Positions 11,756 through 15,474 of a DNA stretch of 23,755 nucleotides are shown piece by piece (the first letter of the stretch is position 1; every line of letters starts with the position of its first letter). Made by a program: the position numbers and the translations under genes. The notes under the pieces were generated by a model. The model ran no database searches and was not told the DNA's origin. It worked only from the letters and a program-made list of their open reading frames with translations. The DNA is from a virus. The DNA lies in the IMG/VR virus record IMGVR_UViG_3300036944_000917, positions 1 through 23,755 of that record; one strand, given 5' to 3'.

Positions 11756-12076
11756 TTACATACCTCCTAACGTTAAAAATAAAAGAGCCTCTTCGACCAT
11801 GGAGATCCGATCTTCAACCTTCGGAGCCTCCGCGTGAGGGGTTCCTTTTTGCTTAGCAATGGAAAACCAATCCTCGAAATTATCTGCGATGGTACCTTCC
11901 AGCCCTGGCCTGTTCCTGATCCCTGTGAGACGGTAAAGATCGTACTCATAGTGTTCTTCTCTTTCCTCTGTTGCGGGCACCACTTTTACATCATCGTAAA
12001 AAAGGATATCCACAAAATCGCCAGAGACCTCGACCTCAAATGGATGCTGCGGCATCACGTTGCTTTCTGTCTTCAT
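11756..12076 (-). CDS. Small tail-associated protein, 106 aa
   Basis: A beta-rich first half (HPFEVEVSGDFVDILFYDDVKVVP...YEYDLYRLTGIRNRPGL) is followed by a helical end (DRISMVEEALLFLTLGGM). Proteins of this form, with the EDRISxxExAL end, commonly precede XkdX in phage genomes and are thought to accompany receptor-binding tail parts. It overlaps the reverse transcriptase 3' end by 41 bp. An AAAGGA site lies 12 bp before the ATG at 12076; a second ATG at 12055 could also serve. It is not an Avd-type four-helix protein, being beta-rich and acidic. Confidence 0.7.
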   Translation of the reverse strand: MKTESNVMPQHPFEVEVSGDFVDILFYDDVKVVPATEEREEHYEYDLYRLTGIRNRPGLEGTIADNFEDWFSIAKQKGTPHAEAPKVEDRISMVEEALLFLTLGGM

Positions 12077-13244
12077 TTCTGATCACGTCCTTTATCTTTT
12101 TGATTTTTACATTTGGCTTTATGTTTTTATGGTAGTAATTATAAGAGTTGCAGTGCCTTAGCCAGCCTATCCGGGCCATAAAGCTTCTTGCGTTCCGCGC
12201 CGATATAATCTCTTGTTTCCCGAGTTTTCTACTCTGCCTGCTGATTTTGAGGGACAGCCACTTCCGGAGGATGGTTTTATCGCGGAAGAATCTAAGGCCT
12301 AGGAAATCCAGGTCTCTGCCTCTTCTTTTGCCGTGGCGGTCAATGTAGTCAAACCTGTACACCTGCCAGTTGTCTTTTATGAGTATTCCTTCTTTTGCGA
12401 GCAGATCTGTAATAAGAGCTACCTGTCTGTGCAGCTCCTTTTTATTCCGACCCCATAGCACCATGTCGTCGATGTACCGGATAAAATAAGGGACCTTGAG
12501 ATCATGCTTGATGTAGTAATCAACCGGGGTAAGGGAGAAATTACAAAACCATTGAGATGGTGAGTATCCGATAGATAGACCTATCTTCTCGCCATCCACA
12601 ATCTTGGCGTGGTAGCTGTCCAGGATCCTGAGACAAAGCTCAATATAAAACCAGCCCCGGAATTTCTTCCGGAGCAAGCTCTCAATGTATTTATGCGGGA
12701 TGCTTGGATAGCACTTTGTGATGTCGAGTTTTGCAATGTACTTTATCGCTGACTTGTCTATGTAATTATGTCTGTTGATGATTTTCTTTACTGTCTTTTG
12801 CCCTCTGTGAGATCCTTTGCCCGGTACGGATCCGTAAGAGTGGTAATAAAACCCACTCATTAACGGCTTGCTGCCGGATTCGATGATCAGCTGATGGACC
12901 ACTTGATCCGGATAAAGAGGCACGCTTACGATATCTCTTTCTTTCCCGGATGGGCCATCTTTTATTCTAAATGCTTCACACTTCTTCGGGATGTACATCC
13001 TGGATAAAATATGATCACTTATCTTGAGGCCTTTGTGTTGTAGGATATAGGCTTCTTTAGTGGCCAGCATGATGCTGTGCATGTCTTCCACATAAAAATC
13101 TATATTCTTCAGGATCTTCTGCGCCTTTTTATATTTATGGTTATTGCCTTTATTTTTCTTCTTTTTCGATTTACATACTGTGGTAAGCGCCTTTTTAATT
13201 GTCTCTCTGTCAGTCAATAGACTGTCCACGTTGTAAGATTTCAT
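12036..13244 (-). CDS. DGR reverse transcriptase
   Basis: A 402-aa reverse transcriptase. Motif A reads KLDITKCYPSIP with Asp173; the segment IGYSPSQ at 225-231 fits the [ILV]GxxxSQ signature that sets DGR enzymes apart from group II intron and retron RTs; the catalytic motif is YIDD at 257-260 and DLDFLGLRFF at 311-320 is the later palm motif. No maturase or nuclease domain follows. It copies the template repeat RNA with errors at adenines, and the cDNA replaces the variable repeat of the tail gene. I start at ATG 13244 (TAGGAG upstream, 135 bp beyond the template repeat). The same frame is open upstream through the template repeat to GTG 13493, but that part is template RNA. Confidence 0.92.
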   Translation of the reverse strand: MKSYNVDSLLTDRETIKKALTTVCKSKKKKNKGNNHKYKKAQKILKNIDFYVEDMHSIMLATKEAYILQHKGLKISDHILSRMYIPKKCEAFRIKDGPSGKERDIVSVPLYPDQVVHQLIIESGSKPLMSGFYYHSYGSVPGKGSHRGQKTVKKIINRHNYIDKSAIKYIAKLDITKCYPSIPHKYIESLLRKKFRGWFYIELCLRILDSYHAKIVDGEKIGLSIGYSPSQWFCNFSLTPVDYYIKHDLKVPYFIRYIDDMVLWGRNKKELHRQVALITDLLAKEGILIKDNWQVYRFDYIDRHGKRRGRDLDFLGLRFFRDKTILRKWLSLKISRQSRKLGKQEIISARNARSFMARIGWLRHCNSYNYYHKNIKPNVKIKKIKDVIRNEDRKQRDAAASI

Positions 13245-13378
13245 TGTCACTCCTAAGATGTTCTTTTTTATCGCTTTACGTATCCTGGGGTCAAGCCTTA
13301 CTAACACGTACCGTTGCAGCAATTTTTGCCAAGGGGCACGGAAGAGAGCGCGCAATACTAAAGATTTTTTGCTGCAGC
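13245..13378 (-). other. DGR spacer between template repeat and RT (initiation region)
   Basis: A 134-bp stretch without a separate gene. In the Bordetella phage DGR a spacer of similar length and place is part of the RNA on which cDNA synthesis is primed. It begins with a 12-bp perfect palindrome TTGCTGCAGCAA (13369-13380) at the template border, and a near copy (TTGCAGCAA, 13314-13322) recurs about 55 bp on, giving possible internal pairing. It ends with the RT ribosome site. Confidence 0.6.
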
Positions 13379-13497
13379 AAAGACGCGCGAGACGATTGAT
13401 GTTCGAATTCGACGGGGCGTTATTCAGGTTGAAGTAGACTGGAGAACAATTACGGCCACCCGACCAGACACCGCCCACGAACACAGCGCTCACTGCG
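13379..13497 (-). repeat. DGR template repeat (TR), 119 bp
   Basis: A 119-bp sequence matching the variable repeat at 13572-13690 with a constant offset of 193 bp and 106 identities. Of 13 differences, 12 fall where the template has A on the coding (minus) strand; 12 of its 19 adenines differ against 1 of 100 other bases. The adenines are concentrated in AAC/AAT codons of the same frame as the tail protein (seven Asn plus one ATC), the usual TR design for maximum amino-acid change without stop codons. The 17 bp at the RT-proximal end (13379-13395) have no adenine and stay identical. Confidence 0.95.
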
Positions 13498-13529
13498 CGC
13501 TCAATCCCTATATTTTATTTTCTAATGAT

Positions 13530-13545
13530 GGGGGCTACCGCCCCC
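13530..13545 (-). repeat. GC-rich hairpin between VR and TR
   Basis: GGGGGC-TACC-GCCCCC: a 6-bp perfect stem with a 4-base loop, 4 bp from the VR-proximal hairpin. On the minus strand no T-run follows, so it is not an obvious terminator. It could protect the tail mRNA end, or form part of the DGR target structure. Confidence 0.6.
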
Positions 13546-13549
13546 AAAC

Positions 13550-13565
13550 CCCCGTTAAGACGGGG
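13550..13565 (-). repeat. Hairpin/cruciform just after the variable repeat
   Basis: CCCCGT-TAAG-ACGGGG: 6-bp perfect stem with a 4-base loop, 6 bp beyond the 3' end of the variable repeat; the tail gene's stop codon TAA lies in the loop and stem edge. DGRs of the Bordetella phage type have a short-stem, 4-base-loop hairpin at this place that increases retrohoming, so this is probably its equivalent. Confidence 0.75.
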
Positions 13566-15474
13566 ATACAAAAAGACGCGCGAGACGAAAGAGGTCCGAA
13601 CCCGACGGGGCGTAAAGCAGGAAGAAGTAGACTGGAGACCAACTACGGCCACCCGACCAGACACCGCCCACGAACACAGCGCTCACTGCGTATCTGCCGT
13701 AATAGTAATATGAGGCGTAGTACGTTGTACTTGCCCCGCCTACTGCCGTAGGCATCCTGACAGCTGGAGACTTAGGATCCTTACCCATCTGCGTAACGTA
13801 GCCGTCGGACGGGCTTAGGTTATAGTCAACCTTCTTCCAGTTATCGTCAATAGCGCCGTTGCTGTAGAGAGTAGGATCCGACAGCTGATAAGCGTTATAG
13901 GTATAAGGGTCTTCTACTGTTCCAGATCCAAACCTTTGGATTAGTACATCCGATATGCCAGAGTAGGCCATAGCCCAAGGGTCAACCTTACCTCTCCATA
14001 TGCAAGGGTACCTTCCGTTTGAGTTGCTCACAGGTGATCCGGAGGACGCTTTGACAATGTCCGTTGCGCCGTTTCTCCACGCTCTTGTAGAGATAAAAGC
14101 GCCCAACGGGATATTGAGTGGAGGACCATCAAAGGATATTGCCTTGTTTGAGGCATCGTACACGTCAATCGCTGTAATCACTACTCTTGTAGCGATATTG
14201 CTTCCGTTTTTCGTGGTTCCGATGCAGATGGTCTGACCGACCACGAATTGATCCGCTGAGGCGTTGGCCATAACAATTCTGTTTACGCCATCCTCTGCAA
14301 AGATAGAGATATCATCTCCATTATAGCGATTGGACATTGCGCCAGTCATTACGTTCTGCACGTCTCTTGTGGCAAACTCCACAAGCTGCAGCACGTACTC
14401 ACTGATTCTCACAGCCATGGTCTCAAGATGAGCCCTAGCGTGATAAGTCCTGGCGGTAGCCATACTTCCATTGATGGAGTTGTATTCCGGATGCGTACCA
14501 GACAAAGAGCACGCTTTGCCATTGTCCAAGCCTAGCCAGTAAGATGGCAGATAGACCTTATCCACTGGATTTTTAAACATCGGTGCAAGTTCAAACCCCT
14601 CTAGAGGTGTTGCTGATACTTGAGGCCAATCAAGGCTTCCGTTCCAGTAAAACGGCTTCTGTTCGTAAAATACCTGGGCTTTTTCCGTGTATGGGGCAAA
14701 GACTGCACCCCCCAGATCAAAACCAGGCTCGCCTTCATAAGTCATTACCTGAGCCTTACCTGCAGAGTCATGATAAACAAGGCATCTTGGGCGCTGGAAG
14801 AATGACACATCGTCGAAGTCATTTTGGACCAGCTGATCATCTACTCCCACATTCGCGATCATTCCGATTGCATCATGAGTTCTCACCCCTTCGGCATTGG
14901 ATCCGGAAAACTGCACGCCGTATATTTTAGATTTTTGAGAGATCTTCGTTGTCATGTTGTCCAGTCTGTCTTTCAAAGTCCCGAAACCACCCCTTGCAAG
15001 GATAACCTCAGAATCTACCGTGAGACCTGCGACTATCGCATCGAAGTCATTTCTGATGCTCTGGATATCCAGGAAAGCCTGATCGATTGCAGGGTATTCA
15101 TCCACGCTCTCAGTGTTAGGATCATCAACGCCAGGCTGCACTTCCATGGTAAAGATAAAGGACTTGGCCACGCCTGCATCGCCAAGTACCTCGACAATGC
15201 CGACTACGGCGCCAGAGAAGAGGAGTACCTGGTTCGTGAGTTTGACCTCTGCGATTCCTGCGGCGGCGTTTGTGATGACTCCGGGCAGAAGGCTGATTGT
15301 GCCATCTTTCTTCCGGAACTTCACATTGACCGTGGTTCCAGTGATCGGAAAAGGCTGCGCGTTGTGGACAAGAGTAAATTCAATTTTGACTGCCGACTCG
15401 CCTTGTACGGGTTTTATCGGCAGCCTGTTTTCTTTCGTAAGATCCAGTCTTACTTTAAAAAGTTTATAGTCCAT
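13555..15474 (-). CDS. DGR target: BppU-like baseplate/receptor-binding protein with variable lectin-type end
   Basis: A 639-aa tail protein. Residues 1-115 (DYKLFKVRLDLTKENRLPIKPVQGE..., SFIFTMEVQPGVDDP) match the N-terminal domain of BppU-type upper baseplate proteins; a helical linker (130-190) follows, then a large C-terminal domain. The last 45 residues (SAVFVGGVWSGGRSWSPVYF, then a variable segment, then RLARLFVSPS) are the C-type-lectin-like fold end typical of DGR targets. The variable repeat covers about 595-634. Residues set by template adenines are 611, 618, 620, 621, 625, 627, 628 and 629; these should form the receptor-contact surface. It follows the DUF859-like gene by 10 bp and is the last large tail gene before the retroelement. 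Confidence 0.92.
   Translation of the reverse strand: MDYKLFKVRLDLTKENRLPIKPVQGESAVKIEFTLVHNAQPFPITGTTVNVKFRKKDGTISLLPGVITNAAAGIAEVKLTNQVLLFSGAVVGIVEVLGDAGVAKSFIFTMEVQPGVDDPNTESVDEYPAIDQAFLDIQSIRNDFDAIVAGLTVDSEVILARGGFGTLKDRLDNMTTKISQKSKIYGVQFSGSNAEGVRTHDAIGMIANVGVDDQLVQNDFDDVSFFQRPRCLVYHDSAGKAQVMTYEGEPGFDLGGAVFAPYTEKAQVFYEQKPFYWNGSLDWPQVSATPLEGFELAPMFKNPVDKVYLPSYWLGLDNGKACSLSGTHPEYNSINGSMATARTYHARAHLETMAVRISEYVLQLVEFATRDVQNVMTGAMSNRYNGDDISIFAEDGVNRIVMANASADQFVVGQTICIGTTKNGSNIATRVVITAIDVYDASNKAISFDGPPLNIPLGAFISTRAWRNGATDIVKASSGSPVSNSNGRYPCIWRGKVDPWAMAYSGISDVLIQRFGSGTVEDPYTYNAYQLSDPTLYSNGAIDDNWKKVDYNLSPSDGYVTQMGKDPKSPAVRMPTAVGGASTTYYASYYYYGRYAVSAVFVGGVWSGGRSWSPVYFFLLYAPSGSDLFRLARLFVSPS
13572..13690 (-). 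repeat. DGR variable repeat (VR), 119 bp
   Basis: Second copy of the repeat, inside the end of the tail gene. Its stop-proximal 17 bp (13572-13588 on the plus strand, with GACGCGCGAGACGA) are the probable initiation-of-mutagenic-homing element, GC-rich and identical to the template. Relative to the template, N becomes S, F, L, Y, G, D and F and one I becomes L. Thus this copy has been through at least one round of mutagenic homing. A thirteenth difference (template TGT, variable TGG; Cys to Trp612) is not adenine based. Confidence 0.95.

Follow-up and report, generated by a model that had tools for sequence, protein, structure and literature searches.

The virus fragment studied here (IMG/VR record IMGVR_UViG_3300036944_000917; 23,755 bases, called the window when the whole stretch is meant) almost certainly carries a diversity-generating retroelement (DGR) without avd, of the sort known from phages of Firmicutes, in the genome of a temperate siphovirus. 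A complete DGR acting on a phage receptor-protein gene had been proposed for this DNA, and the proposal is borne out by an adenine-specific difference between variable repeat (VR) and template repeat (TR), a DGR-type reverse transcriptase (RT), a target with a predicted C-type-lectin domain, a hairpin past VR and 51 related loci that are built the same way.

Downstream of the tail module on the minus strand lie TR and RT, then a small ORF, an XkdX-like ORF and the genes of a BhlA-type holin and an amidase endolysin; a tyrosine integrase and a CI-like repressor are encoded on the plus strand. The siphovirus tail module, also on the minus strand, includes a tape measure (22408-19850), a Dit protein (19929-19159), a Tal-like endopeptidase tail protein (19148-17307) and a DUF859 protein (17302-15485). 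The siphovirus context assumed by the original prediction agrees with the presence of Dit, Tal, the tape measure and the BppU_N domain of the target described below. Homologues of the small ORF (12076-11756, minus strand) are found directly after RT in many relatives; the ORF matches no known family and had no match in the phage records compared. We considered it as a possible DGR accessory protein and rejected this in favor of an XkdW-like tail/lysis neighbor; it is probably an XkdW-like gene because a 43-aa XkdX-like ORF comes next, 3′ of it on the same strand.

Repeat pair, target protein and reverse transcriptase

VR (13690-13572, minus strand), at the end of the tail gene, and TR (13497-13379, minus strand), between the target gene and RT, form a gapless match of 119 bp whose similarity has sharp edges at both ends. 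Twelve of the 13 mismatches are found at template adenines (12/19 adenines vs. 1/100 other bases; odds ratio 170, p = 6.5e-11), where the substitutions are 6 T, 4 G and 2 C. TR adenines lie largely in AAY codons and number 9, 8 and 2 at codon positions 1, 2 and 3, respectively. The adenine-derived changes affect eight target codons, those of Asn611, 618, 620, 621, 625, 627 and 629 and of Ile628, and the single non-adenine difference is located in codon 612 [TGT (Cys) in TR, TGG (Trp) in VR]. Our recount returned the same repeat lengths, the same share of adenine differences and the same eight codons (seven Asn, one Ile) as the original prediction, and the minus-strand order of tail gene with VR, TR and RT was correct. 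Its distance of 74 bp from the stop codon to TR is in reality that from VR to TR, the stop-to-TR distance being 57 bp. No second VR was found in the 23,755-base window.

DNA folding past VR revealed two GC-rich hairpins (z -4.3, 0/200 shuffles). Hairpin 1 (CCCCGT-CTTA-ACGGGG; 13550..13565, minus strand) is located directly 3′ of VR, over the stop codon and beside hairpin 2 (TGGGGGC-GGTA-GCCCCCA; 13529..13546, minus strand), which has a GC-rich stem of 7 bp and a 4-nt loop. Hairpins downstream of VR in phage DGRs follow a GRNA consensus in their four-base loop (PMC3240598), with which the GGTA loop of hairpin 2 agrees, and hairpin 2 is likely the target-site cruciform. GC stems with a 4-5-nt loop follow VR in 33/51 loci, the window included, vs. 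0.5 expected in shuffles. In many relatives a poly-G stem carries a five-base GGNCA loop and not a four-base GRNA loop (L007, L008, L011, L020, L027, L035, L036, L061, L065, L074 and L075).

The DGR target is a tail protein of 639 aa (13555..15474, minus strand) with matches to PHROG tail families and, over residues 7-137 only, to BppU_N (PF10651; E 1.9e-11), in line with the BppU-like tail gene with VR at its end that had been proposed. The AlphaFold model of residues 165-639 (mean pLDDT 75.9, with modest confidence of about 53-80 at the VR end) has as its best match the Thermus aquaticus DGR variable protein TaqVP (PDB 5vf4; Z 16.5, 248 residues aligned, rmsd 3.4), the next entry being at Z 9. 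With TaqVP so far above all else, VR is predicted from the model to lie in the C-type-lectin domain of the target, a TaqVP-like part of about residues 227-638 (13561..14796, minus strand); C-type-lectin domains are the usual targets of DGRs (PMC8144416). Alignment and structure matches place a beta-barrel of about 87 residues (381-467; 14074..14334, minus strand) as an insert within the lectin-like part; it is also found in some relatives and is missing in others. The eight variable sites may form a host-binding surface.

The RT gene (12036..13244, minus strand) belongs to PF00078 and phrog_1423 (E 4e-66). Homologues set its start at the ATG at about 13244, and with the stop at 12036 it encodes about 402 aa; the RT of 485 aa given previously corresponds to a longer reading that begins inside TR and has to be abandoned. 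The motifs IGYSPSQ and YIDD had been correctly recognized and conform to the class [ILV]GxxxSQ plus YxDD; the enzyme retains 32 of the 35 residues that are near-invariant in its family, among them the catalytic YIDD. In a PDB search with a profile of the window RT and three phage relatives, the closest solved RT was that of the Bordetella DGR (8ub7; E 1e-36), followed by a group IIC intron RT (E 2e-24). A tree of 93 rows, including phages LBR48, Arawn and Epona, IMG/VR relatives and three group II intron RTs, groups the window RT with the three phages and the IMG/VR relatives at 100% support and keeps the group II intron RTs apart; this was the tree that had been proposed for placing the enzyme. 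The nearest neighbor in the tree is L085, and this exact placement is unsure because the branches of both RTs are long. The window RT did not reach the cut-off of the group II intron RT family (TIGR04416; 72.5 bits vs. 300), and no group II intron RNA was matched in 13150-13750. A group II intron or retron enzyme is ruled out by the sub-cut-off profile scores, the PDB match and the tree.

Related loci and the spacer RNA RT-18

Single-protein scans of IMG/VR with RT and target returned no close relatives, and a scan of GTDB contigs returned one distant relative only. A profile of four RTs yielded 80 IMG/VR loci. Not counting the window, 51 distinct loci contain a VR/TR pair, and in these 766 of 793 mismatches (97%) are at TR adenines, with 57% of TR adenines changed vs. 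0.6% of other bases; the 51 were kept by a loose adenine criterion (at least 60%), and the unfiltered list agrees. The adenine-site excess in related genomes, the lack of which would have counted against the original prediction, is present across the 51 loci. In all related loci except L002, a distant bacterial contig, the VR/TR pair lies upstream of RT in the order VR-TR-RT.

The spacer between TR and RT contains a match to the Rfam RNA family RT-18 (RF03021; 13263..13338, minus strand), which at 45.7 bits (E 8e-7) is above the gathering score of 41.3. RT-18, reportedly described by Weinberg in 2017, is a family of unstated function that was named only for its proximity to RTs and that may now be assignable to DGR template RNAs. 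Of 50 relatives' records, 47 have it, in one copy each (over the cut-off in 35), and an Apilactobacillus plasmid carries it next to a related RT. Searches of Bordetella phage BPP-1, crAssphage LMMB, Versailles and Perkons found none, and RT-18 was not detected in Epona; at the same spacer position, the Butyrivibrio phage Arawn (L004) has a sub-cut-off match to another family, RT-4 (RF03025). A search of IMG/VR with the RT-18 motif alone yielded 75 contigs, 58 of which have a DGR-type RT adjoining it; the 17 matches of the DNA pattern without RT are attributed to chance, zero having scored with the covariance model. By these matches, the RT-18 family is part of DGR cassettes throughout the RT clade of the window. 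No link between RT-18 and DGRs was found in the literature searched, the scope of which did not extend to the original description of the family, and the link is not established as new.

When the spacer was folded thermodynamically by itself, no signal emerged (z 0.37), and the evidence for the predicted structure of the spacer RNA is covariation: among 60 distinct sequences, the RT-18 helices covary strongly, scoring 0.74 vs. 0.26 when shuffled (0/500), with slid controls at or below 0.14, in an alignment that was fitted to the model and is in consequence biased toward structure. In addition, TR pairs through its 3′ end with the bases at and just past the RT-18 terminus in 46 loci, for example UCUUAUCC/GGAUAAGA, CUUGUUUG/CAAACAAG and CUUUCUGA/UCAGAAAG, with a mean score of 16.75 vs. 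12.9 ± 0.35 when partners are swapped between loci (swap maximum 13.9, n = 300). In the window this long-range helix is weak: its 5′ strand UCUUU, the last 5 nt of TR (13379..13383, minus strand), and its 3′ strand AAAGA, at the end of RT-18 (13262..13266, minus strand), form 5 bp only, which is not above swapped partners. A CGAAA-like motif, kept in about 58 of 64 aligned RT-18 sequences, is missing in the window, where CCAGG replaces the CGAAA of most relatives.

The spacer RNA of BPP-1 has two tasks, bringing in the complex of RT and Avd and providing the adenine used for priming (PMC12875486), and RT-18 would be rightly placed for such a recruitment and priming role. We lean, with some caution, toward a model in which RT-18 would serve, across a large clade of avd-less phage DGRs, as 3′ scaffold for the template RNA: the spacer fold, clamped to the TR 3′ end by a conserved long-range helix, would recruit and position RT, and perhaps prime cDNA, replacing the BPP-1 spacer together with Avd. 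The helix between TR and RT-18 is a defined pairing, open to a mutational test, and avd-less elements, being compact (one protein and one RNA), would suit studies of mechanism and the directed diversification of laboratory proteins.

Proposed mechanism and present activity

We infer that the element is active at present and that it works, from its transcription and cDNA synthesis to retrohoming and receptor binding, along the following lines. TR and the structured RT-18 RNA 3′ of it would be transcribed together, and RT would copy TR into cDNA, inserting bases at random where the template has adenine. This cDNA would then replace VR in the 3′ part of the tail gene, helped by the hairpin just past VR, and each such replacement could alter at least 8 residues of the terminal lectin-like domain, so that host binding may shift.

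It is unlikely, in our judgment, that the element was once active and is now decaying, its VR differences being relics of earlier rounds. The one VR/TR mismatch off adenine would fit such a decay, but amounts to just 1 change per 100 non-A sites. The loss of the near-invariant CGAAA from RT-18 points the same way, although the window copy is still over the Rfam gathering score and the relative L076, likewise without a CGAAA-like motif, has 16 of 17 mismatches at adenines. The weak helix between TR and the spacer and the long branch of the window RT could be added to these signs, but the RT frame is intact, its catalytic residues and 32/35 near-invariant residues are kept, and the target frame is intact as well. 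Loss of CGAAA, the short helix, the long RT branch and the non-adenine mismatch could mean weakened activity today; the reading frames and catalytic residues are all intact. A plain sequence duplication beside an unrelated RT of group II intron or retron type, with VR diversified by ordinary selection, has practically no probability and is refuted by adenine bias, PDB match and tree, since the weak matches to group II intron and defense RT profiles that would favor it are far under their cut-offs (72 of 300 bits), selection would not pick out template adenines, and both the tree and the PDB match lead to DGR RTs.

Comparison with known systems

As an avd-less DGR, the window element is one further phage DGR beside thousands, and it is of an already known kind because avd-less DGRs with the same layout have been published; Avd is absent from most DGRs of Faecalibacterium phages, and the layout seen here has been described, e.g., in Epona (PMC5883640). 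No match to Avd (phrog_3206) was found in the window record, itself a fragment, in a search whose BPP-1 positive control matched, and Avd is absent by the same family from 33 of 35 other relatives' records. Avd-like ORFs occur in two relatives, not between TR and RT: L037 (record G024, 100,996 bases; G024:91185-91556) and L053 (G032:16699-16953). Not being universal, Avd is not a defining trait of DGRs.

The DGR of BPP-1 (mtd/avd/TR/brt) shares with the window element a tail receptor gene with VR at its 3′ end, a TR between target and RT, the adenine bias, a GRNA-loop hairpin past VR and a structured spacer between TR and RT. It differs in that the window has no avd between VR and TR, its spacer is RT-18, which is missing from BPP-1, and its target combines BppU_N with a TaqVP-like part, whereas that of BPP-1 is Mtd. 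The window copy of RT-18 itself conforms to the Rfam family (RF03021) in sequence and structure over the gathering score, but without the near-invariant CGAAA. With TaqVP the target shares the C-type-lectin variable domain (Z 16.5) at 15% identity, and differs by the inserted beta-barrel and a phage tail N-terminus. The closest parallels are the DGRs of Epona (Faecalibacterium), Arawn (Butyrivibrio) and LBR48 (Lactobacillus), which likewise have no Avd, belong to the same RT clade and share the order tail gene-VR-TR-RT-small gene(s)-lysis genes (for LBR48, the RT and lysis side was seen), although their RTs are only 30-37% identical to that of the window and their tail proteins are different.
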